NCBI GenBank assembly: GCA_023313575.1
Contig: JAJTTP010000003.1
Location: 248,001-312,000, forward strand
DNA from: Eutypella sp. D-1
Lineage: Eukaryota > Ascomycota > Sordariomycetes > Xylariales > Diatrypaceae
Reading direction: 5' to 3'
Length of the DNA: 64,000 nt
Positions within the stretch are counted from its first letter, which is position 1; each line of letters opens with the position of its first letter. A program made the translations under genes and the position numbers. The notes beneath the pieces were generated by a model. That model was not told the DNA's origin. It searched no databases and saw only the letters and a program-made list of their open reading frames with translations. This document shows, one piece after another, positions 1-22,510 of the stretch.

Positions 1-44
1 GTATCTATATACTTGTTTAAGTACGTTATAGATATTTTATTCAC

Positions 45-831
45 GTATTGTCATATGTGGTTGGCCATACCTCGAAAGAATATAATAACATGCACGTGGC
101 GACATGTTGCACGGCCCCCTGGGTGTCAAGCTCTATGGTCTCGGATGCGGCTGCTAAAGCCCCGAGAGCAGAAATCTTGAGTTCGCATGCCTGCGACTGA
201 AGACCGTCACGATGTAGGGATGAGAAGGCAAGTAATGAGCGTAGAAGCGCCGTAGTAGAATGAGTGTCACTCGATAATGACATTCGGAGAAGGTATTGGC
301 CGAGGACGGTGGGGTCGTGGCTAAAGGTCGCAAGAGCCCGTGCAGCCTTATGATAGACTGAGGTTCACATGTTACCAACTAGTGTAGACAATTAACAGAA
401 CACACTGCAGGGGGTTTTATTACAGTAGTGGAGTAGTTCCCTGTGCCCTACTTCTAACTTGCGAGGGTTCCACGGGATAGCTACAATTAGTGTCGGTAGC
501 GCACTCGCTGATATGGTGTTAACTTCGAATAATCTGTATGTTGTAATTAGAAACGTAGAGATCTGACCTTTCCTATCCGCGGCTGTGAAGCGCCGATACA
601 TCTCAACATCCCCTAGAGACACGTGGACGAAACGTCCTTCGGACGTGTACGTCTGATCGGTCCCCCCATTCTTGGGTGATTCTCCGACAACAGCGCGTCT
701 TCCGTCGTTCGCTTTCGGCCAGAACAGTCGGAGTGATGACATGGTTCGTTGATTGCACGAGTCCCTTTCCTGAACTATTAGACGGGAATCAAATGCGGCT
801 TGCTCTGTAGCAGTTATTATCAAGAGAACTC
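45..831 (-). CDS. Partial Zn2Cys6-type fungal transcription factor (C-terminal regulatory domain), runs off the left edge
   Basis: Two exons read leftward: about 831-424 and 357-45, joined by a GTAATA...CTCAG intron. A further donor (GTGAAT) at 44 points to more exons beyond base 1. The joined frame has the pattern of the fungal-specific regulatory domain Fungal_trans_2: an IPWNPR segment, LATFSHDPT, LLRSLLAFSSLHR, QSQACELKISALGALA and AVQHVATCMLLYSFEV. I could not find the cysteine-rich zinc cluster upstream. Either it lies in an unrecognised exon, or translation starts at an internal ATG near 742 and the protein lacks it, or the gene is decaying. Its position beside a P450 and PKS cluster suggests a pathway-specific regulator. 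The family call is fairly firm; the gene model is not. Confidence 0.55.
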
Positions 832-1803
832 CTGTAAAGGTGAATAATGCGATTCCAGTTATCCGGACTGCAAGGTTCGCTCTGCCTGGCGATCTTACGC
901 CCCATAATTTTCAGCTCGCTTACTCCCGCCACAACACTGCCAAGCAGCCCATGTCGCCATGTCGCAGCGATTGGTAATCCAGATCAAGCTTACATTTATG
1001 CAAGGGCCCCTTATACGGCAGTCCGATAAACGATTGTCAGCTGTATTACATAGTACTGTGCCACACTGTGTGCATGGCATCGATATGGTGAGGATATCCT
1101 TAAACGCATAAAAATCGGCTGGTCTGGACTCCTACTAGATACTATTAGTTGTAAGTGTCTATGTCCGGACTATATCCCCTTGAATTTTCTGACAATCATG
1201 TTGTGCTTACCCGTCCAGAACAAGCCCATAATGTAGTATATTCTCTGCTTTGTATGAAACCCAAATCCGAGTCATTTTGAATACGTCAACAAGTTCATTA
1301 CGTTAAACCCATGGCGCTTTGATCTGCACCAACAGTGTCTCGGATATTTTTGTTATTCAGTCAGCCCGTAGAAGATATGGAAGGTAGTGTACCAGGATAG
1401 GACTTGATGGGTGGATAAGAACAGTTTTCCACGTCAGTCCTTGCTTATCTGTATCTAATAGTAATATCGAGGTCGACCTATTGGCTTGGTTTTGAGGATG
1501 ACGGGCTGCATTGTCCGCTGGGTTGATTCTCCTTATATTCTTCTTCCATGGCGTTCTTGATCTCTGCCTAGCGGCCGTGAAGGCCGCTGCTCTGCAGACC
1601 TTACTTTCTTCATATCCTTCTTTAGATGACCATCTGTTGTTTCACTCTTCTGATGCAGCTTTTAATTATCACATATTCTATAGTGGGTTGTAGGACATCT
1701 CCTTTCATATCAGAAATATTCTATCCAACAAGTTTGAAACGTCTATCAGTGTTTATTATTTACCAAATTCATCGGATTGTATTCAAGCATCAAATCTTTC
1801 AAG
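832..1803. promoter_or_regulatory. Intergenic region upstream of both the regulator and the P450
   Basis: The regulator (-) and the P450 (+) diverge from here, so it should carry both promoters unless unrecognised 5' exons of the regulator lie in its left half. It is AT-rich next to the P450 start. I recognise no further gene and no clear operator. Confidence 0.4.
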
Positions 1804-3757
1804 ATGTATTCCCATGTGACTCGGTATATCCTTGACGCTGTAATCACAGCTCTTGTTCTATATCTGTTTCAAAAGCTGTTTAAAATCGGAAGAAGACCGA
1901 GTGATTACCCACCAGGGCCACCTACTCTCCCTCTTATTGGAAATCTACACCAGATTCCTCGTCAGAATCGTCACCTGCAATTCGAGAAATGGGCTCGGCA
2001 GTATGGACCAATATACTCGCTTATGTTAGGCACTAAGGTCATGATTGTCCTCAACTCAGATTTGGCCATCAAAGATCTGGCTGATAAGCGAGGCGCCATA
2101 TACTCCTCCAGACCAGAGGCGTATATCGCTCAGGATATATTGAGTGGCGGACTCCGGGTTCTTTTCATGGTATATCATATATCGTATCCAGTTATCGCGC
2201 ACTACTTAGAATATGAATTCATTCTAACTTATTTTTAGCCAAATAGCGGCGTGTGGACAAAATCGCGGAAATTAGCTCATCGCATTCTGAATGTATCTGT
2301 AGCACGAACCTACGTGCCTTATCAGGACCTCGAAAATAAAGGGATGCTAATTGGATTTCTGGAAAGTCCGGGTGATTTTATCAGTCACCTTCGTCGATAC
2401 ACAGCATCCCTGACAACCCAGATGACCTTTGGGTTTCGTACCGTAACCATGCATGATCCGAGGTTCAAAGAAGCATTCGAAGTATGTGGGTCACAACCCC
2501 TAATTGGGGTAGCAATGATTTAACATTCTTGGTAGATTTTCGATCGGAGTTCCGAGTTGATAGGGTCTCGCGTGAGTGAACATCCTGATGAGGAGTCTAT
2601 GTGGAATAGCTAGAAACTTGACTAACATGACTTTTTCTCAGGTGGCGTCTCTACTGGACTTGGTGCCAGTACTGAGGCGTTTGCCAAGTTTTCTTTTACC
2701 TATAAAGAGGGAGGCCATTGAGATCCACCAACGTGAGTTGGCGCTGTTTCGAGGGCTATTCCTGCAGGCCAAGCAAGGGCTGCAGGATGGCACAGCTAAG
2801 GTAAGGAGTTACCTAAACCAGTCGGACTGTGTAAATTGATACCAATTTTCGATAGCCTTGCGTCTGTGTCGACCTTGTGAAAACGCAGAAAGAGGAGGGA
2901 TTTTCTGACGACCAAGCTGCGTATCTGGGGGGCTCATTATTGCAAGCTGGCTCTGAGACCACGGCAACTATACTTATCGGTTTCGTTCAGGCGTTGGTAC
3001 TCTTTCCTGAAGTTGCAAAGGCAGCTCAGCAGGAGTTGGATCGCGTTTGTGGCGACCGCATGCCGGACCTGAACGATGTGCCCAATCTTCCGTACATCCG
3101 GGCTTGTGCCAAGGAAAGCTTCCGGTGGATGCCGGGGTTCATGCTGGGAATACCTCACAGCGTTACGACAGATGACAGGTACATGGGATATCACATTCCA
3201 AAAGGTTCAACTGTAGTTATGAACGTTTGGTGAGTGATTGTTAGGGCATTAGCACGTTGCTTTCCGCTGCTGATGACTATGCTTCTTTTCACTATAGGGC
3301 AGTACATAATGACCCGCAGAGGCACCCGAACCCCCGGCAATTCGACCCTATGCGATATATAAACGACCACCAGACATCGATTGATGCCGCCAATAACCCC
3401 GATGCCACCAAACGAGATCATTTCGTGTTTGGTGCAGGAAGGCGTCGGTGTCAGGGTATGCACATTGCGGATCGATCGGTATTTTTGGCCATGTCACGGT
3501 TGCTCTGGGCATTTGACTTTCACCGAGCCGTAGACCTGAAAACCGGTCAGGAACTTATTCCGGATATGAGCAACCTCGCGGACGGTATGATGTCCTTTCC
3601 TAACCCTTTTCCGACAGATATACGTCCTAGAAATGCATTCAAAGCCGAATATATAAGACAAGAATGGGACCAAATGTTGAGGTTGCTTGATGAACAGGAA
3701 CAGTGGAAGGCAGTTCCTGAGGGATTGATATGGAAAGATGAGCAGCTTTTTGAATGA
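1804..3757 (+). CDS. Cytochrome P450 monooxygenase (cluster tailoring enzyme)
   Basis: Six exons: 1804-2169, 2239-2481, 2536-2571 (only 36 bases), 2642-2800, 2856-3229 and 3298-3757, giving about 545 residues, normal for a microsomal fungal P450. The N-terminus has a hydrophobic anchor (about residues 8-22) followed by the proline-rich hinge PPGPPTLPLIGN. The I-helix carries AGSETT (299-304), the K-helix ExxR is E355/R358, and the haem loop is FGAGRRRCQG with ligand Cys444. The start is the ATG at 1804. Fungal P450s of this sort oxidise hydrophobic intermediates at the ER, using electrons from a reductase encoded elsewhere. In salicylaldehyde-type clusters the P450 hydroxylates the aromatic intermediate; that role here is inferred from context. 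It is convergent with the downstream cupin gene. Confidence 0.95.
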
Positions 3758-4120
3758 GGCGGGTATTTCATGTTGGTCCACTAGATTCCAATGAATGGCC
3801 CATGCTCTTTCTATCTCAATCTGTCAGGGGCTTGGGGCTTGGTTCTCCTGCCATTGAGGCTAGTCAGCTAGCGGCAAGGCCCTAACCGTAGTAGATCTCC
3901 CCGACAGTAGAGCTAGTGTTAGTAGATACTAAACAAGAAACCAGATGCCTTGCGAAGCTACATCAATTGAAAGCATATTCATCGGACTCCTGGGCAAGTC
4001 AGATTTGATAACTCTAATAAGAACGGCAAGTAAATTCATTGTGGCAAAGTCCACTTAAATACTACTCAACACTAATAGACCAATCAGATTTCTGATTGAA
4101 ACGTGCCGCCATCATTGCTG
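3758..4120. other. Convergent 3' intergenic gap
   Basis: About 360 bases between the converging ends of the P450 and the first cupin gene. It should hold both 3' UTRs. I see no ORF or repeat of note. Confidence 0.5.
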
Positions 4121-4809
4121 CTATGTGTCTTGAGTCTCGTGGCCGGGGAGCCCAACGTAGTCCTTGCCAAGTACGCCAAGGAACCCATCTACCTTGCTAC
4201 CAGCTACATTTAGATCTTTGACGTCGAGTAAAACAAAGAGTATGCGCGCGGGCAGGAGCCCATTGCCGGTAACATTGATCCATCTGTGGGATGTGGAGCG
4301 TTGGACAGCAATGTCGCCCCGCTGCATGATGCGTTCTTCGCCCGAATCGAGGACCATCTTGAAGACACCTTCAATGACGATGGCGTAATCGAGACTCTGA
4401 ACGCGATGCATTGGTGACACACCACCTGGGGCAAAATCGATCATGCGGCATACAGTTCCATTCTTAACGGTGATACCGGGCTGCGTTTAACTAATTAGCC
4501 AATCCCAACTTGATAAGTACGCGAGGGCGCTGATAGTTGCCTTGAGCATACTTCGTTCTCATGAGCGAATTTGACGTCGGCAGCGTCATTGAGGTCAACG
4601 GGATGCCCTTGGGTTGAATAGATGATATTGGCAATAGCAGACTTGTTTACCAGCTCGCGATGATGGTCGCCAACGTCGGTAGACAAGAACACAGATTTGC
4701 CTTCGACATTGTGGCCGGTGACATGACGGACGACACGGGGGAGGCCTTGGACAGGATGTGGTGTCTGGACATAGCCCTCGGCCGGATTATGGATGTCCTT
4801 GGCAGCCAT
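4121..4809 (-). CDS. Cupin-domain protein 1
   Basis: Two exons, 4809-4552 and 4480-4121, joined at a GTATGC...GCAG intron, encode about 205 residues. A single cupin barrel is visible: a STDVGDHH segment in the N-terminal half, then MHRV with His111, the IEG strand with Glu123, the turn QRGDIAV and a second metal-type histidine in TSHRW (His151). Family knowledge: cupins of this kind in fungal polyketide clusters are thought to act as small metal-dependent oxidoreductases or isomerases on the PKS product. It is a paralogue of the cupin gene at 6215-6930; both have a final exon of exactly 360 bases and the same last-intron position. The two diverge across a 1.4-kb spacer. Catalytic role and substrate are not shown by the sequence. 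Confidence 0.86.
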
Positions 4810-6214
4810 GGTTGGACAGAAAATTAACAGTTCAGGGGTATCTGGTTCCTATAATTTCGAAAGTAGATGTTCAGACCAGTACGAATTGCAATGATGTTGG
4901 GAAGTGTCGTGTTTGCACTTGGAGAGAAGCCAATAATTAAACCGACTGAGCAAATGCTGTTATCAGCTCTCGTATCAGATTGCCTAGATAACCGATAGAA
5001 TCTAGGGATTGCATCAACAGCATGTCATCTGTACGCCATGTAAAGACTGGTGCTTTTTGGTCGTAGCACTGATCAGCCGCATGCGCCCGTCACACGATGA
5101 CAAATGATAATATAATAGATCATGCAGCCGTGCCTCAGGCTTCAAGTTCGGAGAACTGGAGGGTCGGGATTTTGTTGTTTTCCAAGTGTCCTATCAGCTA
5201 CGGAAGCGACTCCAGTCCTGAAGCAGACTTGGCCCGCCGAGGTAGTTACTTCCGAATGTGACGAGGCCGATGCGGTAACCCGCATTGACGGAGACTTCAG
5301 AGAATCAACATGCAAGTAATATGCATGTATATGCATGTCAGATGGTAAGACGGCTCGGAGTTTCTATGGCTAAAGCACGATCCCTGACATCTTGTTTTTT
5401 TTTAGTCGGTCAGGGGCAAATATAAGCAACCCAACATAGTCCAACGCCGATCCGGGCCGACCCTCAGGAGAGTGGTCCCCGACCCCCGGGCCGACCTCGA
5501 TAGGCTTCCCTAACACTGGAGGAGACTCTTGAAGGGGAACCCTGTTGAAGGTAAGCTGATCCATTGCATCGTTTCCCCGCCTCGCATCTCTAACATAATA
5601 TTACACATCCGGCGATACCATCAGTCCATGACCTTGGGCACTCCACTACATCCCCTACCCAGGTGGTGACCTTCTCCCGTGACAAACCATGAGGAATGAA
5701 GCTGACGAGCGCCGGAAGTTTCGGTAGCCACTAACCGAGATATTCAACGACATCCATAACACGATGCATGCAGCTTTGAACTCAGCACAGCTACATGCAT
5801 ATCACCGCTCAATCCTAGTGTACTCGGGGTCCTGTGGGTTTCGGCTCTGCACCTCCTAACAGTGGTTTCTAACCGAACCTCGACGGTTGATCCATTGGTT
5901 CAACTTCAATTCGCTCATACATATGCAATTTTCCTCGCTACATATTAACGCCGAAAACAACCATGCGTACATCGGTAGAGGCAGTTATTGAATGTTTGAC
6001 CTCTTATGCCCTCGTTTGTAGTAGGTAGGATTATTTGTGGCCAAGGCTTCGTCCCACCTGCTCTACACATTGAATGTGAGACTGGGTCCTACTAGATAGC
6101 TACCTATTTCAATTCCATTGGCTTTAAAATGTCAACTCTTGCTGCGCGAACTATCAAAGACCTCCCGACTTGTATTTTCATACTGTAACATACTACAGTC
6201 AATTCCTCCACCAG
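4810..6214. promoter_or_regulatory. Divergent promoter region between the two cupin genes
   Basis: This 1.4-kb spacer separates two head-to-head paralogous cupin genes and must hold both promoters. It is mostly AT-rich but contains a GC-rich block at about 5440-5500 in which the 11-mer CCGGGCCGACC occurs twice in direct orientation, at 5452-5462 and 5486-5496. GC-rich repeats of this kind could be operator sites for a Zn2Cys6 regulator, or a remnant of inserted DNA. No gene is supported here. Confidence 0.5.
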
Positions 6215-6930
6215 ATGTCGGCGCCTGTTCTTGCTACCGATTTCCCGGTCCCGGGTCTTCGTAACCCGCTCCGTTATATCACTGGGCACAATAGCCAAGG
6301 TGATGCCGTCTTTCTGAAGGTAATGTTGGCCTGCTATACCATTTAGTCCTAGACAACTTTTTAACATAGTTAGACGGACCATGGCGACCACCATGGCATT
6401 ATGCTAGGTGGCATTGGAGCCCAGAACATCCTCTACAGCAGCAACAGCAATCCAAACGAGCTCACTGGAGATGTCGATCTTGAGTTTGCTGCAAAGAATA
6501 ACGTCAGTCTCACCCCGTGACACATCAGTATATATCTGATAGCTAATTCATCTTCCTTTCTTCGCTGCAGCCCTCTCTTCACATGCCTAACGGATGTGTT
6601 GTTAGAATGATTGACTTCACCCCTGGTGCTGCATCGAATATGCACCGTGCCTTGACTCTTGGGATTGGTACTGTATGTGAAGGCGAGGTCGAGCTGAGCC
6701 TGGGTAGCGGTGAAAAGCGGATTCTTCGTCCGGGTGACGTCTCTATCAATCGTGGCGCCATGCATAAATGGCGGAATACATCTAACGAGAAGCCTGCGCG
6801 CATGCTATTCATCATGTTGGATGTCAAGCCCATTATCGTGAACGGAAAGGCTTTGGAGTTTGAAATGGGGGAGTTGATGAAGGCATACGCCGAGTATGCT
6901 GAAGGCGAAGGTCCGAACAAGAAGGCATAA
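6215..6930 (+). CDS. Cupin-domain protein 2 (paralogue of cupin 1)
   Basis: Three exons, 6215-6319, 6374-6502 and 6571-6930, encode about 197 residues. The second exon uses the acceptor at 6372-6373, which puts the TDHGDHH segment in frame, matching STDVGDHH of cupin 1. The barrel motifs are SNMHRA (His103), VCEGEV (Glu115), RPGDVS and AMHKW (His143), so three likely metal-binding positions are kept in both paralogues. The first intron is absent from cupin 1, while the second is at the equivalent site, followed in both by a 360-base final exon. The C-terminal tail is charged and differs from cupin 1. I infer duplication within the cluster and division of labour on successive intermediates; no substrate can be read from sequence. 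Confidence 0.88.
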
Positions 6931-7905
6931 CTAAACTAGATGTCGGAATCCTGCTAGGTTACATAAGCTTTTATTCAGAGTTTGAAACGTCTACATCTAC
7001 GTATAAGACATGTCTTATCCATCGAAAAGGGGAAACATTAACGGCATCATTAGTGGTATATGAATATTGTTGGTTATTCTTACATATGATAAATACAACA
7101 CCGTCTCCATTTCGACAAATCTTTTGATGTCCAATTGAGCCTAATCACGAAGCAATATTCAATTCTTTCTTTCGCGAATTCTGCATTTAGCCAAACCTCA
7201 TGCCGTCATGTGATATTCTGTCAATGTTGGGATAGACGCTGACCAAAGGCTGGCCACTATTTCTAGAGATCTCCCCGTCAAATTTGCCACTGTAGGACTG
7301 TCTTCAAAATTTAACATGCACTTATTGCGGCAGGTTCCGTGTACCTGTAAGCTATGATAGGTGAGAATACATGCAAGTGTACGAGAAAGTTTACGGGCCG
7401 CGATTGGCGCCCCATGGGGAAGACAAACAGATCTTGGGGCTAGTCAGCGTGAGCGTCAGCTTAGTGAGAAATATGTAGAAAGCTCTGACAGTCCGGCTAA
7501 ATAATTAAGAAATGTCCGTCATTTGTATGCAGTAACGATGTTCCGGAGTTTTCAGGGCGTCAGCCATCCGAAGCTTTCCTTATTGGCTGAACATGCATCT
7601 TGAGTATGTCGGCAGGAGTCGAACATTCTGATGGGTTCTCGTTACGCACATGACTCCTACAACATCGTAATCGTGCTACCCCCTTCTTCTCAAACCCCAC
7701 TAAAAGGCGCAAACGGGGATCCTCCTATAATCTCGCCATATCAATTTGACTTGTCCAGAGTCATTTAGACCAGTAGACCGTGCTTGGAAGATAAACCCTG
7801 TGGCACTCATCAGCCTCTAGAGATAAACTTACTGAGGTCCAACACGTTAGATATTAGCAACGATTCACTTAACGAAATACGCTTTCCTACGAAGCTCATA
7901 TCATC
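6931..7905. promoter_or_regulatory. Intergenic region with the promoter of the acyl-DHAP-reductase-like SDR
   Basis: About 975 bases between the second cupin and the first SDR, both on the plus strand. It should contain the cupin 3' UTR and the SDR promoter. No supported ORF and no transposon signature were seen. Confidence 0.4.
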
Positions 7906-9235
7906 ATGGCCCGCAATGAAAGGTTTGCGCTCGTAACTGGGTACGTATCGTGTGTTGACTTCGTTCATCCATCAGCTAACCGGGACAGTTGTGGCCGCGG
8001 CGGCATAGGCGAAGCCTTAGTGACAGAATACACTCGTCGTGGCATCCATGCCATTGCGACTGTACTCCCACACGAGGCGCGCGATTATCTATCAAATGCT
8101 GGAATCACGGTATTCCCGCTTGATGTCACTGTAGAGCAGTCTGTCACTGATCTGAAAACTGCGGTGTATGAGTTAACTGGCGGACGTCTCGATATTCTTG
8201 TGAATTGCGCGTAGGTACAACTCCTTCCTGTCTCGGTATCTGCAAGCTCAATAGCTCCATGACATAGTGGTATAGCTTACACCATGACGGCGATCGACAC
8301 CGACGTCGCTGCTGTACAACGCATGTTTGATATCAATTTGTTCGGTCCTATGCGCATGGTCCGAAGTTTTCACGGCATGATCATTCAATCCAAGGGAGTC
8401 ATCGCCAACATCGGGTCTATTGGCGGGATTATACCATTTTTGTACGGCTGTAAGTCTGGCCGAACCATGTTTATAAACCTTTACACCAACAGATACTGAT
8501 TCCAAGCCAACAGCATCATACAACGCAAGCAAAGCAGCACTTGCCCATTGGGGGAATACCTTGCGTGTGGAAATGTCTCCATTTGAGTGCGTTCTTATAA
8601 AAGTGGAAATTCATAGGAATATTTCCAGGCTAATTAGAAATCGCAATCTTAGCGTTAAGGTCATAACGGTTCGTCTCGCCCAAACCCCGGACTATCATGT
8701 CTCCAGATGTTGAATGTTATCTCGCAGATCATATCGGGAGAAGTGAGTACGAACATCCTAAAGAGCGACGCGCATAGGGCGCTTCCGGAAGGTACAGAAC
8801 ATAGTCGATATCCTATATTATTATTATATTTGTTCTAATGATGTACGTTCTAGAGTCTTACTATTCACCGCTGGCCGAAAGCTTCCACCAGCATGTCACG
8901 AGAATACCGGGTATGTACCGTCCCTAGAATGTTATGAATCGAAGCTACGTTTCTAACAACAGATTTAGGTGGTGCTACGGATCGATTCAAATATGCCGCA
9001 AACGTTGTCTCGCAGACTCTTAAGTCGAACCCTCCAGCCTGGTATTGGTACGGTAGCTTCACAGGCTTGACTCGTTTCCTCGACACATTTGCTTGGCGCA
9101 CGGTTTGGGTACGGTTCACACAATCCAATCGTCTTGTCAAAGCTGACAACCTTTTAGGATTCCATGATGTGGAACATGTTTGGTTTGAAGACCTTGAAGC
9201 AAGCTCACTCAGGATCGGTGAAGAAGGATATGTAA
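7906..9235 (+). CDS. Short-chain dehydrogenase/reductase, acyl-DHAP-reductase-like
   Basis: Nine exons: 7906-7940, 7989-8210, 8268-8449, 8514-8586, 8653-8668 (16 bases, least certain), 8728-8791, 8854-8910, 8969-9108 and 9158-9235, giving about 288 residues. The Rossmann motif TGCGRGGIG spans the first splice junction. NCAG, the serine strand NIGSIGG and the catalytic YNASK (Tyr149, Lys153) follow. The C-terminal part (RFLDTFAWRTVW, then WNMFGL) has the form of fungal NADPH-dependent 1-acyl-dihydroxyacetone-phosphate reductase relatives, which often turn up as redox enzymes in polyketide clusters. The likely job is NADPH-linked reduction or oxidation of a chain carbonyl or alcohol. Nine exons in 1.3 kb is dense, and small errors in the model are possible. 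Confidence 0.85.
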
Positions 9236-9640
9236 CAAGTAGGTCGTAAAGCATCCTTTGAAATCACAGTCATGATAGTATGGGATAAGAGAACTCGGAT
9301 TGTTCTATGAGATCAAAGATTATACGTACGTCTATTAAGTGAGCTTAATTTTCCTGGATGATGTCTTACAGTGATCGTATCGAATATTATCCATACTAAG
9401 TGATAACTAAGCTTCATCGCGTCTAAACAAGCCCCTATAGTGGATCCGGTTCTCCTATCATTAGTCATAAAGTATGGATCAAGAGTTCAAACGGGTGGTC
9501 AAAGTGGGCCCACCTCCGAATATTGTCGCCTGAATAAAACCCAACGCCTCGAACCTTGTTAGTTGAAGGCTAGAAATCTGGAATCTCTCAAGTCCCATTT
9601 TATTTATTCATATACAGCTCGCGGTCGCATTGTGGAAGCA

Positions 9641-9673
9641 GCGATCCTACATTATTGAATAATGTAGGATCGC
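9641..9673. repeat. Perfect 33-base inverted repeat
   Basis: Two perfect 16-base arms, GCGATCCTACATTATT and its exact reverse complement, are separated by one base (G at 9657). It could extrude as a cruciform or fold as a long RNA hairpin. It lies between two convergent genes. Confidence 0.9.
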
Positions 9674-9681
9674 AGTACCTG

Positions 9682-9707
9682 GAATCTGACAGATTTCTGT
9701 CGGATTC
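9682..9707. repeat. Second hairpin immediately downstream of the perfect palindrome
   Basis: Arms GAATCTGACAGA and TCTGTCGGATTC pair over 12 bases with one mismatch, which would be a G-U pair in RNA, around a two-base loop. It starts only nine bases after the 33-base palindrome, so the two form a tandem stem-loop block. Confidence 0.8.
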
Positions 9708-10321
9708 TCAGCCGTCTTACATCGCGTTGGGTAATTATTTCAATATGAAATGCGAATGAACCTCCGAATTGGACTAGTTCGATGGCCTTTTATTCTCATT
9801 ACTGCTACCCTGAAGGCAGTAATCTTACTTCACCTTTCAAGGTTGTCAGTCATGCAATCAGTGTCTGAAGAAAATACTCATAGCCCGGCCAAGGTGAAAT
9901 ATTATGATTTCACTATTGAAGTACTATTGGAACAACCCCTATGTACTACTTCTCGGTTCCGGAGAATGACTGTATCGTGCTGTTGTGTTTAAGCACACCG
10001 GTTGGAAGGATTTGTATCCCACTCCCAGACATAAGCGTTTGGGATGTCTTGTTATGTACCAGGTACATTCGCTGTTTAGTTCTACCTTTTATGGTTTCTG
10101 TTATTAATGCGTTTGGATGTACTAGCTGGCGAGATATCAAGGCCTTTGATCTAACTAAGGGGTTTGGAATATAGAGGTTTAGACTGCAGATAGAGTTTTC
10201 ATTTCCGGCATAGTTCAGCTTTTATGTTATACCAGCACGTAATTGTGTCATTTCTATTGGGATCTAGGCATCATAACTACCTCCGTGAGACTTCCATCAT
10301 ACACTGGAATATTTACCGAGA

Positions 10322-11320
10322 CTATCGAGATGCCGTCAGAGTTGTCCCACCATCAACGACAAGGCTGCAACCGTTCATGTAGCTGGACCTAGGACTACAT
10401 AGAAAGATGACCACATCAGCCACTTCTTCCGGCACCGCAATTCGACCAATCGGAACTGCTCTTTCTATAAACTCCGACAGTCCATCTACACCCTCCATCG
10501 CCCGTCGTACCATGGGAGTATCTGTCCATGATGGACAAACGCAGTTGACCCTAATCCCGTAAGCTGCATTATCAAGAGCTTAGGTAGTAGGCAATATCAG
10601 TACATTTCGTCGAACGAGAAACTGATTGGATACTCACCGCTGTTCTTCGTAAGCCCAAGAGCCGCATGTTTAGATGCTGTGTATGGGAGGACCCCGGCGC
10701 TAGCAACGAGTGAGGACGCCGAACCAAGATTCACGATAGCCCCACGCGTAGTTCCACGGGCTGGGTTAGCTTCTTCAATGGGCTGTGACTCTTGGGCTCG
10801 CATTGCAATGGATGCCCCCCTTGTTACTAGAAAGGTGCCTGTGGCGTTGACATCAATAAACCGCTGAAACTCCGCTAGCGATAGATTTGCTATATCGGTG
10901 CTTTCTTGAGCGCCGATCTAGGAAGAACGACATGGTCAGCATGTGTCCGAAAGAGGATAATTCCTCACTCACCCCGGCGCAGTTGACGCAGTAGTCGATG
11001 CGGCCGAAAGCTGAGGTCATCTCATTGAAGAGGCTGCGGACGGAATCTTCCTGAGTCACGTCGACTGGAAAGGCTTTTCCTTGGAATTGTCTGTTCGTCG
11101 CAACAGCCTGACATTCAGATATTGTGTCCCTAGCCGCTTCTACAACCATATCGGCTACCAGGATTCCAGAGACACCCTCCTTAGCAAGAAGGATGGCGCA
11201 AGCTTGTCCGATTCCCCTGCCTGTTAATATCAGAATACCAATATCAGTAATCGTAGTCACGGTGCTTCCGAGAAGGTACTTACCCCCACCGACCACTAGA
11301 GCATTACCAGTGATGTTCAT
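10322..11320 (-). CDS. Short-chain dehydrogenase/reductase, FabG-like
   Basis: Four exons, 11320-11284, 11220-10973, 10917-10638 and 10578-10322, encode about 273 residues, the classical SDR length. The cofactor loop GGGRGIGQA is formed across the first intron. VNCAG, the active-site strand NLGSASS, YTASK (Tyr174, Lys178), VNCVCPSWTDTPM and the C-terminal MNGCSLVVDGG complete the pattern of 3-oxoacyl-ACP-reductase-like SDRs. It should use NAD(P)(H) to interconvert an alcohol and a ketone on a pathway intermediate in the cytosol. It is divergent from the PKS and shares the 1-kb upstream region with it, which supports co-regulation. Confidence 0.91.
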
Positions 11321-12358
11321 GGTTGTTGCTATACTCGATTGTAGTTTGGTACTGGTGGCAAGGAGATCTTAGTTACAGTATAATCATGAAGAAAGAATCG
11401 AATTTATGTTGCGGGGTATGAGGCATCTTGCTGACAGGTGATTGCTGACCATAGGTTACTGGCTCAGCTTCGGTCCGCAACAACTCAGATCTGGAGAACC
11501 TGCTAGTGGCCCACTTCTTCCCGAATCTCCTCACGGTTGACATAGGACCTGATTTAGGCCGTAAGGCTCAGGGCTTCATTGAAGCCTTCCCATAATCGTA
11601 CCCTCCTATTCATTGTACTCACAGGGCTACTGCTCGACGTGCTCACCCAACCATCAATCTTCCTTGTTATCATCGGGATGATGTATGTCCGGGTATACTT
11701 GACCGGCAAGTATATTGTCCGAGCCTTTTTAGGATGTCTTCTCCTCGACAGGCACGCCACACAACGTTCTAGAACCTGGCCAGCTCAATCCCTAGCTGAG
11801 CCTCAACCTTGCATACACTTATATCGGTTAGCTGCAGTCATCGCCTTGCAAATGACATAATACTATATCGCCAACTACAGTCCATACGTGTCGCATCTAC
11901 TGAGAAATGTGAGATAAGGTTTCTCAAGGGAGGTGAGAATCACATGCTTGGTTAACGTTATCATGAGGAATCGAGGATAGCTCGTTTCAGGTGAGTCGAA
12001 ATTGTAGTGAGAATACTCGGGGTCAGAGTGATTATCTTTTGAATACACTTATCAAAAGTTGTTGGGGGGTAAGAGAAAATAATACCCTAGTTTTGATATT
12101 CTGGTTGCCCCACAGTGGTCCTCAGGATAGATATAATGCGAGTTTGGTCGAAATAAAGCCAGCGCTGAATATCTTCTTGTGCCTTGATCCAGTCTATTCA
12201 GTATTGTCTAGTGTGAGCCGCGATTCCATATCCCTCCACCACTCATTCTCAAGGGGTTTCTGTCGTCGAGTAGTTCGTCACGACGAGCTGCTAAACTTTG
12301 AAGTTTTTGATATTGAACGGGATCCAGACAGGTCACACAACTTGACGGTGCCATCAAC
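11321..12358. promoter_or_regulatory. Divergent promoter region, FabG-like SDR and HR-PKS
   Basis: About 1 kb between the start of the SDR (-) and the ATG of the PKS (+). It must hold both promoters and the PKS 5' UTR. No supported coding region and no confident operator. Confidence 0.55.
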
Positions 12359-15300
12359 ATGGGAACCTTCAGGGACGATCCGCCATGCATTGTGGGAACG
12401 GGTGAGCCTCTTGTGTTTCTAAACTTACCATATATTCCCATTTGGTTTCATACTCAACTTCGGTACATTTGAGGGAGAGGACTTGCTAATGATCCCACAG
12501 CCTGCCGCCTTCCCGGCAATATTCGCTCGCCTGCGGACCTTTGGCAGTTTCTCATCGAACAGAAGTCAGCGCAGGGACTAGTTCCTCCAGAGCGTTACAA
12601 CATCGATGGCTTCTACCACCCAGAGGGTGGAAATCGTAGCGGTAGCACCAACGTTCCTGGTGGTTACTTCATCAACGAAGACATACGCCAGTTCGACAAC
12701 AGCTTTTTCGGTATCAACAACCTCGAAGCTACGTATATGGACCCACAGCAACGCAAGTTGCTCGAGGTGGTGTTTGAATGCCTCGAAAGTTCCGGCACGA
12801 CTATGGAGAGTATCTCTGGTTCGACTACAGGTGTCTACGTGGGGAATTTCTCCGTTGACTATCAGCCTGGCCAAACACGCGACCCTGACTACCTACATAG
12901 GTATACCTCTACAGGCTCGGGAGCTACCGTGATGTCGAATAGGATTAGCCATGTTTTGAACCTTCATGGACCTAGGTACTATAAACAAATCTCTACCCCT
13001 TGTTTTCCCCTGCTTTTTGAGAACAACGCCTATTGACCAATGACTTCAACCTGCAGCTTCACCGTAGACACTGCATGTTCTTCGTCCATTTACGCCCTCC
13101 ATCAAGCCTTGAACGCAATGAAGGCGGGCGATTGCGACAGTGCCATCGTGGCCAGCACGAATCTGATAATGTCGCCTGAGCTTCATATTGGGGCAGCAAA
13201 AAGTGGTGTTCTTTCACCGACAGGAACATGCCACACTTTCGATGTCTCTGCTGATGGATACGGTCGTGCAGAGGCTGCCAATGCTATCTACGTGAAACGC
13301 CTCTCTGCTGCGCTGAAAGACGGCAATCCCATCAGAGCAGTAATTCGCGGTAGTGCTGTAAATGCGTAAGTCAAGCATTCCTGACTCTGTATCACATGTT
13401 ACACGATTCGTCCAAGACAAGGCCATGCAAACGATTATAGACATCATGGAAATCATGGCCATTTGAGACTTACTATTATGCGAATATAGAAGCGGGCGAA
13501 CCCCAGGAATCTCGTTACCGAGTGGCAAAATGCAAGAGGTTGTTATCCGAAAAGCATATAAGGACGCAGGCCTGGACTTCACAGGAACCGATTATGTCGA
13601 GTGCCACGGTAAGTGCTTCCCTAAATTACCTTGGGATCATCCCTGTTGTTTGAAAAACTTGAATGCCGGGGGCCCGGGGGGCGGGGGGGGGGATGGCCAA
13701 GGAACACCTCGGCTATCTAATAAGCCTCAAGGCATACCCTTCACCTATTCGTTCTACGGGGTGGCCCGACGTATGTCTTGGATCATAATTGACATTGGGG
13801 CTTGCAGGCACCGGTACTCCCGTTGGAGACCCCATAGAGGTTGATGCCATTGGGAGATGTTTCTCTACTCGTGAAGGGCCTCCTCTTCTAATCGGATCGG
13901 TAAGTATAAGCTCTGCCACTTTGGGGTTTCTGTTCCTTGACGTTGCTACTTGCTAGCTTGTTCACAACAATTTTGTTACTTAAGCTTACGTGCTACTCAG
14001 GTCAAAACCAACGTGGGCCACAGTGAGGGAGCTAGCGGCCTCACTTCCATCCTCAAGGTCATCAAAGCCTTTGAAAATGGCCAGATACCCCCGTCATATG
14101 GAGTGGTCAAGCTGAATCCAAAGTGTAAGCTGCCATTGAAATTCAAGCTCCAAATAGACCATCCTGAACGAACGAAGCTAATCTGGTATGGTTTCAGTGG
14201 TCTTGGAGGAGCGCAATCTTAAAATCGCCACCAAGGTAGAGAAATGGCCACGAGCGCTACGTCGTGGTAGTATCAACTCGTTCGGCTACGGAGGTGCAAA
14301 CGGACACGTCGTTCTCGAGTCTATCGAGAGTTACCTTGGTAACGACCATCCACTCAGTCCTTCCAATGGTATTGTTACCAATGGTGCACATACAAACGGC
14401 AGCCATAGAAACGGCGTCCACACTAACGGCGGTCACACTAACGGCCATGCAAACGGCATCCACACCAACGGGGTGCATTCAAATGGTGTCTCGTCCTCCG
14501 GAGACGACCAGAATCTTCTCGTGCTTCCTGTGTCAGCAGCATCGGCGAATTCTCTTCAGACTCTCATCCAGCAAATATTGCCAATACTTTCACAATGTGG
14601 TGACTTAGAGACTTTGCAGAACCTAGCACATACCCTATCAAAAGGCCGTGATCATCTGCGCTATCGAAGCTTCCTGCTGGCATCATACGACGAGGCCTCG
14701 GGTAAGACGACAGCCACAGCAGACGAAGTTGCGCCAAAGGGAACAGCCAATCCCTTACCTTTCGCGTTCGTGTTTACTGGCCAAGGAGCGCAGTATGCTG
14801 GAATGGCTAAGGAGCTGCTATCTCAAAGCCAACACTTCCGCGAAACTATTCGCGGGCTCGACAAGGTTCTCCAAGCCCTCCCGGCGCCTTACACACCATC
14901 GTGGACGCTTGAGCAGACCCTTCTCGATAGCCCGGATATCAGCCGCATCAACGAGGTGACCCGGAGCCAGCCGACGTGCACCGCCGTTCAAATCGGGCTA
15001 GTGGAACTGCTACGGAGCTGGGGAATCCAGCCCGCGTCCGTGGTCGGCCATTCGTCGGGCGAGATTGCGGCTGCCTACGCCGCCGATCTTCTCAGCTCTT
15101 CGGAAGCTATTCTCGTCGCCTACTTCCGCGGCTACGCCGTTGGCGAGCTTCACACACAAGGAAATATGGCGGCGGCAGGTATAAGTCCCGAGTCAGCAAA
15201 GTCTCTCATCGAAAGCAAGGGTCTTCAGACACAGGTTCGCGTCGCATGTACAAATGCGCCTGAAAGCGTAACACTAAGTGGATCGTCTGGTGCAATCGAG

Positions 15301-18300
15301 ACGCTGATAGCCGAACTGCAAAGTCAAAATAAGTTCGTGCGAAAGCTGGAGACCGGCGGGCGTGCGTATCACTCCCATATGATGGAAGAGATCGGTCAGT
15401 TGTATGAGGACCTTCTCAAGCCTGTGTTACACCCTCGTGAAAAGGCAAAGGGGGGAGTTGACAAGTCACACTCCAAGTCTGCTGTCAAGATGTATTCGTC
15501 GGTCGGCCACAGTCCTGATAGTCTTGTCATCATGGACTCTCGGAGAATGAGTGCATCCTACTGGCGCCAGAATCTGGAGCAGCCCGTCCAGTTTAGCGCG
15601 GCTCTGGCATCGCTCGCGGGAGACGCGAAGAAGATCCACTTGATTGAGGTCGGACCGCATTCTGCTCTCAAGGGGCCCAGCCAGCAAATCCGCAAGGCCA
15701 TCGGTCTAAATGAAAAGTCCCTCCTGTACTCGCCCACGCTCGTTAGGAAAGAAGATGCCCACGCGCGTGTCAAGGCGCTGGCCGGTTCCCTCTTCACGGA
15801 AGGTCATGACTTGGCATGGGATTACGTAAACGGTACCGACAGCCCAGGAAAACAGTCAAAGAAGCTCAAGACGCTTCCCGAATTGACACGCTACCCGTGG
15901 GACTACTCGGGCGGTTTGCTCTGGAGCGAGCCGCGTGCAAGCACGGAGATGCGATACCGGAAGTACCTCCGTCACGAACTTCTAGGCACAGCGGCCCTGA
16001 CTGGAAACGGCGTGGACTTTACCTGGCGTAACATCCTGCAACCCAGCGAGATGCCATGGATTAAGGACCATAAGCTCGAAGACCAAGTTGTATTCCCAGC
16101 CGCTGGGTACGTAGCGATGGCCGTCGAGGCCGTGTCGCAGATCGCAGGTATTAAGCAGCAGCTTAAGGAGGGACAACGCGACGTCGGATTCGAGCTACGT
16201 AATGTCAATATAACATCCGCACTAAACATTCCCGACGAGAACGATAGCGCAGCCAAGGATCTAGAGCTACACACTACCATGGCCATTCGAAGGATCTCGG
16301 GTGCCAACACCTCGGTTGATTGGCACGACTTTTCCATTTCATCTTTCTTCTGGACATCAGGCCAGTCCACGACTCACTGCACTGGAAGTATCCGTGTGAC
16401 CGGGCCCCGGAGGGAAGGGCACAGTACCAGCATCACGGTGGAGAATGCCGAGGGTTTCGATCTGTGGTCTTCGACAAGCCGGTGGTATACTAAGTGGCAC
16501 GAAGAAGGGCTCTGCTTTGGTCCACAATTCCAATCATTGACCACTCTGAGAACGGATAGTGCACGGCAGCGAAACGAGGCAATAGCGACTACTAGAATCG
16601 AGCCTGCTCTTGTCGGTGGCACATATGAGTACTATCCAGTACATCCTATCACCATAGATGCCGGTCTTCAGGCCGCATGCTTGAGCGGCACAGCTGGCCA
16701 CGTAGCCGCGCTCAAGACCTGGCTTCCGGTATTCCTTGCCGAGTGCTACATCCAGCCAACAAGCGGCACAGCTGCGAATAAAGATTCTGATGGCGAGCTC
16801 CATGTCAAATCCGAACAGATGGGACTGTCGAGCAGACGCATCGATGGCGTAAGTACACATCCGCTTGTCGAATCTTGTTTGCCTTGCTTTCCACTCGACT
16901 AGAGCAAGAGATAACTCATGGCGAGAGCAAGGGAGGAAGACAGAGGATGCCATTACTAACCATGAGGCATTAGACAATCCGAGACGCTAGCGGCACGATC
17001 GTCGTTGATTTCAAAGACTCTCGAATCGCACTATACACTGGAAAGGATGCGATCGCGATCCCCCAGCAGCACGATGCCGATGACGCAAATGGTAGCCTCG
17101 GCAACAGCCTAGATTTATATATGCAGCGCCAGCCTACCCTCCGCGTACAGGTTAGTTGTCAAGTTTGCCCTTGTCTCTTTCAGTTAGAGGCACATTTATG
17201 TTCCCGCCTACCAAGTGGTCGGTCTGCGACGTGTCGTTCGACGAGATTATAGAATAACTGACACGGTCTGTGAATAGTGGAAGCCTGATGTGCTGAGATT
17301 GTATCCCGAGGCTGCCGAGCAGCTGCGAGCATACGTAGCAAGGTTTGTCGAGCAGCAGCACCCAGACATACGTGACGATGAAAGCATGGCGGCCATTGGG
17401 GCGCTGCTAGAGCTAGCGGGCCACAAGAACCCACGTATGCGTGTCTTAGAGCTCGGCGGTGACGCGCAGGGCTACAAGGCCAAACAGTGGCAAAGTATCC
17501 TTGGTAAGGAGACTGCTTTTTCGCGCTGTCGGTCTTGGCACACAGGCGACTTGACCGAGGATGGGGAGGTCTCGATTAAAGATGAGGAGGAAGGGCCCTT
17601 TGATGTCGTTGTGATTCCCAAGGTATGTTTTCCTTTTTTCCTCCTGAACCTAGCCCCCAGGTTACTAAACTCCATCCCAAACAGCACGCCACCTTGGCAT
17701 CGGAAGAAGCGTGTGCTAGCACGCATGAACGCCTGACATCGCTCATTAGCGAGCAAGGTATCGTGATAGCTCGGAAGTCGGATTCTACCGTAGCCAACCT
17801 GCATAAGGCCGGTTTCGATGTGCTAGATATTGGGAAGCAAGTTCTCCTAGCTATAAGGCCGCTTCCGCCAGCAAGCCTACAAGATCGAAAGGCTTTGATC
17901 CTGGTGAGCTCCTTTTCCGTCCAGTTTCATTTGACTCCAATAGGATGACTTAACACTCACTTGAAAAATACGTGCTGACGACTTCTCGCATCTCCAGAAA
18001 GCTACGAAGTGTTCCAGTACCATCAACGACTTCGCAAAGGCATTGGGAGCATATTTACAGAAGTATGCCGACATAACTGATGTTGGCATCGTCGAGTTGG
18101 ATCATGTCGATACCGTCCAGGTGAACGCAACGGACATATGCATTTCCTTAGTAGAGACGGAGAAAGAGTTCCTCGCTACAATGTCCCCCGAGGGAATGGA
18201 CCGTCTACGTATCATAACCGATACCGTAACGGACCTTCTCTGGATTACAGGGGCCAACATGCTAGGTGACAGCCCTAACCCTGACCTCACCCTTTCCAAC

Positions 18301-20951
18301 GGCCTCTCGCGCGCCTTGATGTTGGAGCAGCCAGCAGTGCGATGGTCAGTGTTGGACATCGGGGCTGTAACGAAGCAGGCCTTAGATCACACCCACGTCA
18401 ACAACGTCTGCGGGAACATCGTGAAAACTCTCGTCGCCAGATACGAGAAGGATGATTGCGAGTTCATCTCAGTGAATGGCATCCTCCACGTCAGCAGATA
18501 CCTCCCAGACTCCGGTGTGAACTCGCTCTTCCGCCAAAGACTAGAGCTTCAGACTGTCAGAGACGAGAAGCGGACGCTGGCAAGTATTAGCCCAGCGCGA
18601 CTCACGATCGGTCGGCCGGGCGTAACGGATACAATGTACTTCCAGCAGCTGTGCGAACCAGGTATGGGCCAATCACCACCTACGGGTTACGTCGACATTG
18701 AGGTGAAGGCCGTGAGTCTCAACGCTAAAGACGTGTATGCCATGCATGGCCGTGTCGAGACGCGCAACAAGACCACGGGTCACGACTTCTCCGGTGTGGT
18801 CACGGCCATCGGCTCTGAGACCAACCAGGGCAGGGATAACCCACTCAAGGTGGGAGACCGCGTTGTCGCTATGTGGCCTATCCAGGTTGGAACGGCGGCG
18901 CGTGTCCCCGCCGATTGTGTGCACCAGCTCTTGGACTCCGAGGAGCTCAGCGTTATGCCTACCATGCCGCTTGTTTACGCCACTGCATTGTACGCTCTTA
19001 AGGACCGTACTCATCTGCGCCGGGGAGAATCGGTGCTTATCCATGCCGGATCTGGAGGCTTCGGCATTGCAGCTATCACTATCGCCCAGAAGATGGGTGC
19101 AGTAGTGTACACCACATGTGGATCACAGTCCAAACGCGATTATCTGATCAACGAGCTAGGCGTGGACCCAGGCCATATCTTCAGCTCAAGAGATTCATCT
19201 TTCGTTCAGGGCATCATGGACGCTACCGATCGTCGCGGTGTCGATGTGGTGATCAATTCACTGGTTGGTGATTTGCTGCACGACAGTTGGCAGAGCTGCC
19301 TGGCAGACTACGGCCGTTTCGTTGAGATAGGCAAGCGAGAACTCGTTGATGCTGGTAGGCTGGATATGCGTGCATTCCTACGCAACGTCACCTTTACAGC
19401 TTTCGATTTATCGGAGCTCTGCTACGCCCGGGATCCCTTTCATCGCGCTACTTGGAGCAGGCTGATGGCCGAAACACTACAACTTTATCGTGCCGGGGAG
19501 ATCAAACCGCTGCCAGCGAAAGTATTCGACGTGACACAGATTTCCCAGGCGTACCGGTTCTTTGCAAATAAAGACCGCGTTGGCAAGGTCGTCTTCTCGA
19601 TGGAGAATCCTCAGGCTCGTGTTCCAGTGGCGCCGGCTCTATATACCAGCGTGTTTGACCCAGAAAAGGTCTATCTCCTAATTGGATGTCTCGGTGGCCT
19701 AGGTCGCAGTTTAAGCCGCTGGATGATGACCCGGGGCGCCCGAAACTTCGTGTTCCTGGGCCGTTCGGGAGCCGACAAACCGAGTGCACGCCAGCTTGTT
19801 TCTCGATTGGAACAGACGGGTGCTACCGTTGGCATCGTTCGTGGTGATGTTTCTCAGGCCGCTGATGTGAAAGCCGCAGTCGCCGCCTGTCTCGAAACGG
19901 GGCGGCAAATAGGAGGTGTGGTCCAGGCAGCCATGGGACTCCATGAGGCCCTTTTCACCCGTATGCCCAATGAGGCGTGGTATGTTCCTGCTCCCATCCA
20001 ACTCCTTCTCAGAGAAGTTGCCTCTACCTATTCAAAATGCATATTTACTAACGAGAATCACGCAGGCATACCGGTATTGACCCCAAATTCCAAGGAACCT
20101 GGAACCTGCATAACGCTCTGGAAGGACAAGACCTGGACTTCTTCCTGCTCACGTCGTCAGTATCTGGCACCGTGGGTACGGCGACTGAGAGTAACTACTG
20201 CTCAGCAAATGGATTCTTGGACGCCTTTGCGCGCTGGCGCCGGTCGCAGGGGCAACCCTGCGTGTCAGTTGGCCTGGGTATGATAGCCGAAGTAGGCTAC
20301 CTCCACGAGAACCCCGAGATCGAGGCGCTTCTTATGCGCAAGGGTATTCAGCGCCTGAGCGAGGATGAGTTCTTGCAAGTGGTGGACCTGGCACTGGCCA
20401 GCGAGGCATCAGCGAGAAGCGTCGCGGAGGCGCACATGCTCACCGGTCTGGAGCCAGCTGCTGTCCGCGAGCTAAGCGCTCAGGGATTCGATGTCACCAC
20501 CCACGGTGTGCTTGTCGAAGCGCGTTCAAGTATCCTCCTCGCCTCACTCCAAGCTGAAAAGGAGGCGGCTGAGGCGGCATCGTCTCAGTCTCAGGGCGCG
20601 CACAATGCAGCAATGGCTAAGGCGGCAGCACCGTGGTTCAAGGACGTGCCAACGGCTTTGGCGGCAGCGTTCGCTAATGAGGCCAGCGCTGACACGATGC
20701 AGGAGGCCATTCTACACCTGATCAAGAAGCGGTTCTCCAACCTGATCCTGATGCCGCTCGACCAGGTTGATGAACGGAAGCCACTTCCCGACTTCGGTGT
20801 TGACAGTATGATCGCTTCCGAGTTCCGCTCTTGGTTCTGGGCCCTGTTCCGTGTCGATGTGCCATTCCTGGATATCATGAGTCCGCAGAAGTCAATCCAG
20901 GTCCTCGCCGAGTTTGTCGAGGGCAAGGTACTGCAAGGAGCGACGAAGTAG
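12359..20951 (+). CDS. Highly reducing type I polyketide synthase, KS-AT-DH-(degenerate MT)-ER-KR-ACP
   Basis: Twelve exons: 12359-12401, 12501-12975, 13057-13365, 13490-13608, 13808-13899, 14001-14124, 14198-16848, 16974-17150, 17278-17622, 17685-17903, 17998-19979 and 20066-20951; about 2,473 residues. KS starts at the very N-terminus (GTGCRLPG) and has Cys180 in DTACSSS, His315 in CHGTGT and His353 in NVGHSEG. An Asn-Gly-rich linker (about 444-484) precedes AT, whose Ser673 is in GHSSGE. DH shows His1012 (KDHK) and Asp1208 (IDAGLQ). The MT-like region has LELGGDAQG (about 1387-1395) where active enzymes have a LEIGAGTGG-type loop, so methylation is unlikely. ER carries HAGSGGFG (about 1866), KR has GCLGGLG and Tyr2223, and ACP has DFGVDSM with Ser2426. 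There is no thioesterase or reductase, so partner enzymes must handle release. The first in-frame ATG after an upstream stop is at 12359. Confidence 0.97.
14365..14487 (+). repeat. In-frame degenerate repeat encoding an Asn-Gly-rich linker in the PKS
   Basis: Nine Asn-Gly dipeptides spaced by two or three residues, often His-Thr, are coded by a degenerate repeat of the form CAC ACT AAC GGC. They sit between the KS C-terminal motif (NSFGYGG) and the AT domain. The stretch is probably a flexible linker produced by repeat expansion. Confidence 0.85.
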
Positions 20952-21383
20952 ACATCATATCTCATTCATAGACTTCTTTAGATCCAGGTAGATTTTATTT
21001 CGAGAATTTCTTTTCTTTTCGTCGACGTAGTGAGAAGCGGCCTACGAAGTGCACGCGTAAAGTAAGATAATGGAATGCCAAAGGTGACCGTGTAGGTACC
21101 GCGTCACCATTGTCGCTTTTAGTTAATTACGCCAAGCCCCTAACTTTTATGGGGCGGTGATTACTCAAGTATGTGGGCCTCTGGAGCTTGTCCCCTGTGC
21201 GCCTAAAATCATATTGGAGCTCTTCGCATTGGTATTTGTTCATGATCTTGCAACTTAGATCTTCGTTGCCTTGACCTCGGGAGCCATTCACAAATTATTT
21301 CTCTAATGATTCGCTTGCAACGACAGCGTGGTAGCTACCCAAACTTCCGGTACTCTATCGTTAATATCTGCGTAAATCATGGA
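20952..21383. other. Convergent 3' gap after the PKS
   Basis: About 430 bases between the stop of the PKS and the stop of the third SDR on the opposite strand. It should hold two 3' UTRs. Nothing else is seen. Confidence 0.5.
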
Positions 21384-22510
21384 CTACTTATTACTCAAGT
21401 TATTCACAATCGTCGATGCGCCGGCGAATTCAAGCTCCTCCAATGTTTCTTCCCATAATCGTTCTACAACTTGTTTTCCCCCTGCTGTATAGTAAATGGC
21501 GGGCCACCTGTGGGCGGACTTAGTACATAAATTACATGAAAAAGTATCGTAAGAAATAATCGCACGAGGAAAGCAAGTCCAATTACTTACGGCTTAATGG
21601 TCCAGTCGCTAACAAAGCGGCCGTGGCTGTTTCTCCCCTGAGTCACTACCGCATCAATGTATACCGAAGCGCCTACCTTGAGCGACCTGGCTACAAGACT
21701 TTTAGCCACAGCCATGATCGTGCGCTGGATCAGGGGCATTGCCCGCATCAGGTCGGTGCCGCTAGTCAGGCCGGGATTCGCGACGTTGACCAGGACGTCG
21801 TCGGGGCTGACGAACTCGGCGAGCTTGGCGGCAAAAAGGGCGTTGAGAAGCTTCGTCTTCTTATACGCCGGAAACTGTACGAAAATATCGGGTCTGTCCA
21901 ATTGCGCCAGGACCGGTCCCTCCGTCTCTAGCGTTGTTTCGTACGCCGTGTCAGAGCCCACAATCGTCAGTACCGGCGGCCTGCCGGCTGGGCTCGACTG
22001 CCTTTTGTCCTTGAGGATAGGGAGCAGCAGGATGGATAGCAAAGCAGTTGACAGGTAGTTTACTTGCAGCGAAAGCTCATGGCCGGTACTGGCCACCGTG
22101 GTGAATGTCGGCTTGGGTGAGGTAGCAGCATTCAGGATGACCATATCAATGCGCGATAGGCTTGCACAGCGGTCTGCGAATTCCCGGACCGAGTCGTACG
22201 ATTCCAGTTCGACGGCCCAGACCGAGATAGTTGCGCGAGGGAAGTCCCGGCGCAGTGCATGTGATGCTGTATCGCCGGCGGCCTGGGAACGCACACCGAT
22301 GACGAGATGAGATAGCCCGAGCTGGAGGAGCTGGCGCGAGGCTTCTAACCCGATTCCCCCATTGCCCCCTGTAACAATTGCGACCGCTCCACCAAGTCGC
22401 ACGTCGTTGGGGGGAGATTTTGGCCTCGTGAACTGCCGCCGTAGTGATCCCAGGGTGGTGGCCTCGTACCGAGCCTGGGTTTCGAGCTGACTATCGAGTT
22501 CGGATGGCAT
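21384..22510 (-). CDS. Short-chain dehydrogenase/reductase, retinol-dehydrogenase/WWOX-like
   Basis: Two exons, 22510-21591 and 21507-21384, encode about 347 residues. A short N-terminal extension precedes the cofactor motif TGGNGGIG (about 48-54), then LNAATS, the serine of VGSDTA (about Ser186) and the catalytic YKKTK (Tyr216, Lys220). The second exon restores the usual C-terminal tail (KQVVERLWEETLEEL), which reading through the intron would cut off at the KP before the donor. This SDR type is frequent in fungal metabolite clusters and acts on lipophilic alcohols or aldehydes. It is convergent with the PKS and is the last plausible cluster gene on this side. Membership is inferred from position and family. 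Confidence 0.9.

Follow-up and report, generated by a model that had tools for sequence, protein, structure and literature searches.

An HR-PKS locus of Eutypella sp. D-1 is probably the right-hand half of a larger cluster for a prenylated alkyl salicylaldehyde

Introduction

What does a compact group of biosynthetic genes produce, and does the stretch of DNA in which the group was noticed hold all of it? This question is raised by a 64,000-nucleotide stretch of the genome of the fungus Eutypella sp. D-1 (hereafter the window; C23:248001-312000, so that a window position equals the C23 position minus 248000), in which a first-pass annotation had described an HR-PKS cluster with the gene content of fungal salicylaldehyde and epoxycyclohexenol pathways. 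The locus has now been re-examined by gene modelling, domain searches and phylogenetic analysis, with searches extended to the whole assembly (48.5 Mb, 72 contigs). The window probably holds the right-hand half of a cluster of approximately 46 kb (C23:224632-270510), whose product would be an alkyl salicylaldehyde or salicyl alcohol bearing a prenyl group, of the flavoglaucin or cytosporin-xylasporin kind. This reading gives a cluster that had no assignment a place in a known family and leads one to expect a prenylated product, not a plain salicylaldehyde; it also illustrates how the tailoring half of a cluster can escape notice when the limits of a window are fixed. The cluster could also bear on the role of the second, StrE-type cupin.

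Gene content of the window

Splice-aware modelling with hand-corrected boundaries gave seven full gene models without internal stops between window positions 1804 and 22510, with GT..AG introns throughout and one SDR1 boundary placed by eye. Pfam searches confirmed the families of the modelled genes (P450, cupins, SDRs and HR-PKS). The order given by the first-pass annotation (regulator, P450, cupin, cupin, SDR, SDR, PKS, SDR) was confirmed by the models and by Pfam, and all eight of the genes it listed are present, seven of them complete and the regulator only partly inside the window. The latter (Fungal_trans_2, PF11951, minus strand) occupies window positions 1..364 and continues leftward to about 247 kb on C23; its Pfam match spans the left window edge, its N-terminus is unsure, and a motif search found no Zn2Cys6 motif near it.

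The cytochrome P450 (1804..3757, plus strand, 545 aa; PF00067, E 1e-70) is encoded by six exons (1804-2169, 2239-2481, 2536-2571, 2642-2800, 2856-3229 and 3298-3757). SDR1 (7906..9235, plus strand, 288 aa; PF00106, E 3e-34) has nine exons (7906-7940, 7989-8210, 8268-8449, 8514-8586, 8653-8668, 8728-8791, 8854-8910, 8969-9108 and 9158-9235), and SDR2, of the adh_short_C2 type (10322..11320, minus strand, 273 aa; PF13561, E 3e-55), has four (11320-11284, 11220-10973, 10917-10638 and 10578-10322). The gap between SDR1 and SDR2 contains a 33-base inverted repeat (9641-9673), whose two 16-base arms are perfect and flank a single base. SDR3 (21587..22510, minus strand, 307 aa; PF00106, E 5e-18) is a single-exon gene at the right end of the cluster. 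The next assigned gene to the right encodes a Stb3-like Sin3-binding protein (25255-26487, by Pfam), beyond which five frames were tested: four match, respectively, a topoisomerase, a DUF6546 protein, a Ku protein and ribosomal protein L24e, and one has no match. These neighbours place the right border of the cluster at SDR3.

Genes to the left of the window and probable extent of the cluster

According to the first-pass annotation, no prenyltransferase, flavin oxidase or transporter is visible. For the first two, this is correct within the window but does not hold for the contig, on which a DMATS-type prenyltransferase and BBE and FAD enzymes lie just to the left. Moving leftward from the window edge, the contig carries a BBE-type oxidase at a distance of 1.7 kb (C23:244756-246291, plus strand; PF01565 and PF08031), a Zn2Cys6/Fungal_trans regulator (C23 ~239244-241300, minus strand; PF04082, with the Zn2Cys6 motif at C23:241283), a further SDR (C23:236532-237614, minus strand; PF00106), a second BBE oxidase (C23:233070-234903, plus strand; PF01565 and PF08031), the prenyltransferase (C23 ~230010-231172, minus strand; PF11991, E 8e-83), which is 29 kb from the PKS, an FAD monooxygenase (C23 ~226605-228635, minus strand; PF01494) and a SnoaL-like protein that is matched in two stretches (C23:224632-225531, plus strand; PF07366). 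The ends of these left-hand models vary between modelling settings. A hydrophobic stretch without a Pfam match follows the FAD monooxygenase (C23:225595-226886), and the two may be one fused gene or two genes. To the left of the SnoaL-like gene lies a frame with a weak helicase match. No transporter was noticed among the open frames of the cluster, and an MFS search that scored 9 of 449 genome candidates decides nothing on this point.

Only two PF11991 matches exist in the whole 48.5 Mb genome, and the uniform-chance estimate for one lying this near the PKS is about 0.25%, a figure that ignores the fact that clusters often adjoin one another. Abutting clusters are thus the caveat to a single-cluster reading, and the genes could also be assigned to two neighbouring clusters, one for an unprenylated alkyl salicylaldehyde (the window genes together with the BBE oxidase and regulator next to them) and another, farther left, comprising the prenyltransferase, the monooxygenase and the SnoaL-like protein. 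The genes are indeed divisible into two such blocks, and a cluster on contig C3 of the same genome combines a PKS, two cupins and BBE and FAD enzymes with no DMATS match on C3. However, neither the gene models nor Pfam on the open frames revealed a housekeeping gene separating the blocks. Moreover, no KS match was found from C23:160 to 260 kb, and C23 has no condensation-domain match; to these searches, a polyketide or NRPS backbone gene belonging to the left block itself is thus not visible. The px cluster discussed below carries both blocks together (PMC11161606). Two separate clusters are hence rather unlikely, and we infer that the prenyltransferase belongs to the same cluster as the PKS.

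The polyketide synthase

The HR-PKS (12359..20951, plus strand; Pfam and splice-aware model) is encoded by 12 exons and has 2473 aa arranged as KS-AT-DH-(degenerate methyltransferase stretch)-ER-KR-ACP. In agreement with the first-pass annotation, which had described a synthase without a release domain, the protein stops shortly past the carrier and Pfam searches of the large exons found no thioesterase or reductive release domain in it. In an alignment with 12 homologues, the active-site motifs of KS, AT, DH, ER, KR and carrier are kept, and the cofactor stretch of the methyltransferase reads LELGGD and is not glycine-rich. Because the glycine-rich motif is missing here and in all 12 homologues, the methyltransferase is probably inactive. 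A frame change inside the KR had raised the possibility of a pseudogene, which was dropped when an 86-base GT..AG intron was found to explain it. The fourth PKS intron is unusually long (199 bases) and includes a long G/C run (window 13668-13692) that possibly reflects a difficulty in sequencing or assembly.

Among the matches listed, the closest relatives of the synthase are from Pestalotiopsis and Nemania (74% identical). Nine of the best 10 of the 120 listed matches belong to Pestalotiopsis, Nemania, Xylaria, Apiospora, Diatrype and a member of the Xylariaceae without a genus name, and the remaining one to Colletotrichum. This spread points to a probable host in or near the Xylariales, the order of Eutypella. 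A KS tree was built from 52 rows, namely the window PKS, 44 of the 120 listed matches and seven synthases of the same genome, several of which form long branches, so that their positions are to be read with caution. The window PKS sits in a branch of 23 rows (SH-aLRT 100) that adjoins an 11-row branch containing a Trichoderma virens entry and an entry named virA. Both branches lie inside a 48-row clade (SH-aLRT 99), and four of the synthases of the same genome fall outside it. A more careful tree of 35 rows, with fewer matches and minus two long rows from the same genome, agrees with this arrangement (33-row clade, 100/98). The window PKS and the T. virens entry (P0149) are 56.7% identical over 2360 aligned residues, and we take this entry to be VirA. 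The synthase thus does not fall outside the salicylaldehyde-forming clade, though it sits in a branch sister to that of the T. virens entry, and no characterised synthase was recognised in its own branch. A further PKS of the same genome, on contig C4, is also found inside the clade, and no cupin match occurs on that contig; membership of the KS clade alone, therefore, does not prove the chemistry.

The two cupins

Both cupins of the window match PF07883. Cupin 1 (4121..4809, minus strand, 205 aa; exons 4809-4552 and 4480-4121) is of the StrE type, being 72% identical over 91% to a Stachybotrys protein named StrE, and it has no match in NCBIfam. It also matches, with 230 bits, PDB 8x0u, an entry titled "cupin-like fold protein StrC from Stachybotrys sp.g12". 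Cupin 2 (6215..6930, plus strand, 197 aa; exons 6215-6319, 6374-6502 and 6571-6930) is 74% identical to a cupin of Neurospora crassa and 68% identical to one of Pyricularia oryzae. StrC is matched by both, and cupin 1 is nearer to StrE than to StrC in the tree. VirC and FogC are further names of cupins in this group of pathways. The StrC structure is presumably reported in a 2024 paper, cited in PMC11915489, that deals with noncanonical aromatisation in fungal polyketide biosynthesis.

In a tree of 43 rows, the two cupins belong to two separate clades. The clade of cupin 2 (18 rows, 97/99) includes the N. crassa and P. oryzae cupins, the former of which we assume to be SrdD. The clade of cupin 1 (19 rows, 95/95) includes PDB 8x0u, and cupin 1 and StrE share a smaller branch within it; the StrE-type cupins, cupin 1 among them, sit on a long stem (length 0.5, 100/100) inside this StrC-type clade. 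The cupins thus group with StrC/StrE and with cupins of N. crassa and P. oryzae, and the salicylaldehyde-type core proposed by the first-pass annotation stands because of the groupings in the KS and cupin trees. Its interpretation is partly supported, right on the core and incomplete on the tailoring.

Which of the two cupins would aromatise the ring may be approached through co-occurrence. Relatives of the PKS and of cupin 2 were found, by eye, on contigs of equal size in at least 14 organisms (120 PKS and 65 cupin 2 matches listed), one of which, Pestalotiopsis sp. IQ-011, contributes only a 115-aa partial cupin 2 match. Relatives of all three genes occurred together in this way in at least six organisms (120 cupin 1 matches listed), including Hypoxylon cercidicola, whose cupin 1 relative is only 53% identical. 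Five further organisms had relatives of the PKS and cupin 1 on contigs of equal size and no relative of cupin 2 among the matches listed. Because the PKS co-occurs with cupin 2 in 14 organisms versus six for the three genes, there is a lean toward cupin 2 rather than cupin 1 as the aromatising enzyme, which is weak since the homologue searches behind these counts were limited by shared words. We also consider it possible, as a tentative idea, that cupin 1 and its StrE-type relatives have given up aromatisation and acquired a new activity towards the prenylated ring (e.g., hydroquinone oxidation and epoxidation), in which case the cluster would make an undescribed cytosporin-like meroterpenoid.

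The nearest relative of cupin 2 among the matches listed is from Botrytis aclada (83%), and it is nested among the cupins of Xylaria, Apiospora and Nemania (99/94), a placement that might be explained by horizontal transfer, either of this gene or of the cluster.

Comparison with known clusters and proposed pathway

The first-pass annotation could not match the gene order to a named cluster; however, a cluster of similar content has been published. The px cluster of Xylaria sp. X802 (xylasporin/cytosporin) comprises an HR-PKS, a prenyltransferase, three SDRs, two cupins, a P450, two FAD oxidoreductases, two regulators, a transporter, a phosphopantetheinyl transferase and a thioesterase-domain protein, and a SnoaL-like gene is present in sister strains of the px-bearing strain (PMC11161606). 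Compared by family, and by description on the px side, the px and D-1 clusters have in common an HR-PKS of the KS-AT-DH-ER-KR-ACP type, an ABBA-type prenyltransferase, at least three SDRs, two cupins, one P450, FAD oxidoreductases, two regulators and, if the px sister strains are counted, a SnoaL-like gene. Unlike px, the D-1 cluster has no phosphopantetheinyl transferase on its contig (no PF01648 match on C23; the two matches in the genome are on C1 and C67), and it has one more SDR and at least one extra flavin enzyme, as it contains two BBE oxidases plus the FAD monooxygenase. Neither a thioesterase nor a transporter was noticed among its annotated genes.

The fog cluster of Aspergillus ruber, which is responsible for flavoglaucin, offers a second comparison. 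The described set of a PKS, a cupin, two core SDRs, a P450, a prenyltransferase and a BBE-like oxidase has family counterparts for every member in the D-1 cluster (PMC11669671, PMC11375781). The D-1 cluster has in addition a second cupin and a second BBE oxidase, more SDRs, an FAD monooxygenase and a SnoaL-like protein. In the fog pathway, the first product comes from FogA-D, FogE and FogH then lead to the prenylated compound, and the oxidoreductase FogF leads to flavoglaucin and its derivatives (PMC11669671). The likeness to the str cluster of Stachybotrys (stachysalicyloids), compared by cupins only, is that to StrE and StrC.

In contrast to the vir cluster of Trichoderma virens, which makes trichoxide, the D-1 cluster contains a prenyltransferase, and its PKS is in a sister clade. 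The vir cluster also has SDRs, a further cupin and a P450. A BBE-type oxidase, VirF, is reported for it. The cupin VirH is reported to participate in trichoxide formation (PMC12356543). For AtyE, which is 50% identical to VirH, the cupin domain is stated to lie at residues 67-111 with 33% coverage, which suggests a protein of approximately 136 aa. This length suggests that the D-1 cupins are of another family than VirH and AtyE. The assignment of cupin 1 as an epoxidase of the VirH/AtyE type was given up as unproved, 8x0u being StrC and the length of AtyE a misfit. A trichoxide-type epoxycyclohexenol lacking a prenyl group, as the title of the first-pass annotation suggests, would accord with the presence of two cupins, three SDRs and a P450 beside a PKS related to that of T. 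virens and with the reported role of VirH, but it is very unlikely in view of the nearby prenyltransferase and of the cupins, which have about 200 aa rather than the 136 or so inferred for AtyE and fall in the tree beside StrC/StrE or the N. crassa cupin.

For a single cluster with a prenylated product, a pathway may be proposed whose order of steps is adopted by analogy because it is the order of the fog pathway. The HR-PKS would build a reduced chain, which its SDR and cupin partners, judging from fog, rus and str, would release and close to an alkyl salicylaldehyde or salicyl alcohol. The P450 may then hydroxylate the ring or the side chain, the DMATS-type enzyme would prenylate the product, and the FAD monooxygenase together with one cupin could carry the oxidation further, perhaps forming an epoxide and a pyran ring, with a BBE oxidase adjusting the benzylic alcohol. 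The best reading of the predicted product is thus a prenylated, possibly epoxidised, oxidised alkyl salicylaldehyde derivative. Distant or generic relatives were all that PDB sequence searches with the prenyltransferase, a BBE oxidase, SDR2, the FAD monooxygenase, SDR3 and the P450 returned.

At least 493 homologous four-gene clusters have been reported in 401 fungal strains (PMC11915489). Given these numbers, the kind is common and one more such cluster is unsurprising.

Related clusters in the genome

The genome of strain D-1 holds at least one more cluster of the salicylaldehyde type besides that on C23. It is located at C3:624001-651000 and consists of an MFS transporter, a PKS, two cupins, a BBE oxidase, an FAD monooxygenase and an SDR; a second BBE oxidase was noticed there by eye. 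One of its cupins is a relative of cupin 2 (80% over the last exon and 63% over a further stretch), represented in the cupin tree by an imperfect 164-aa model, and the other is of the StrC type. A third PKS of the same KS clade is found at C6:236001-253000, with weak cupin matches near 241-242 kb.
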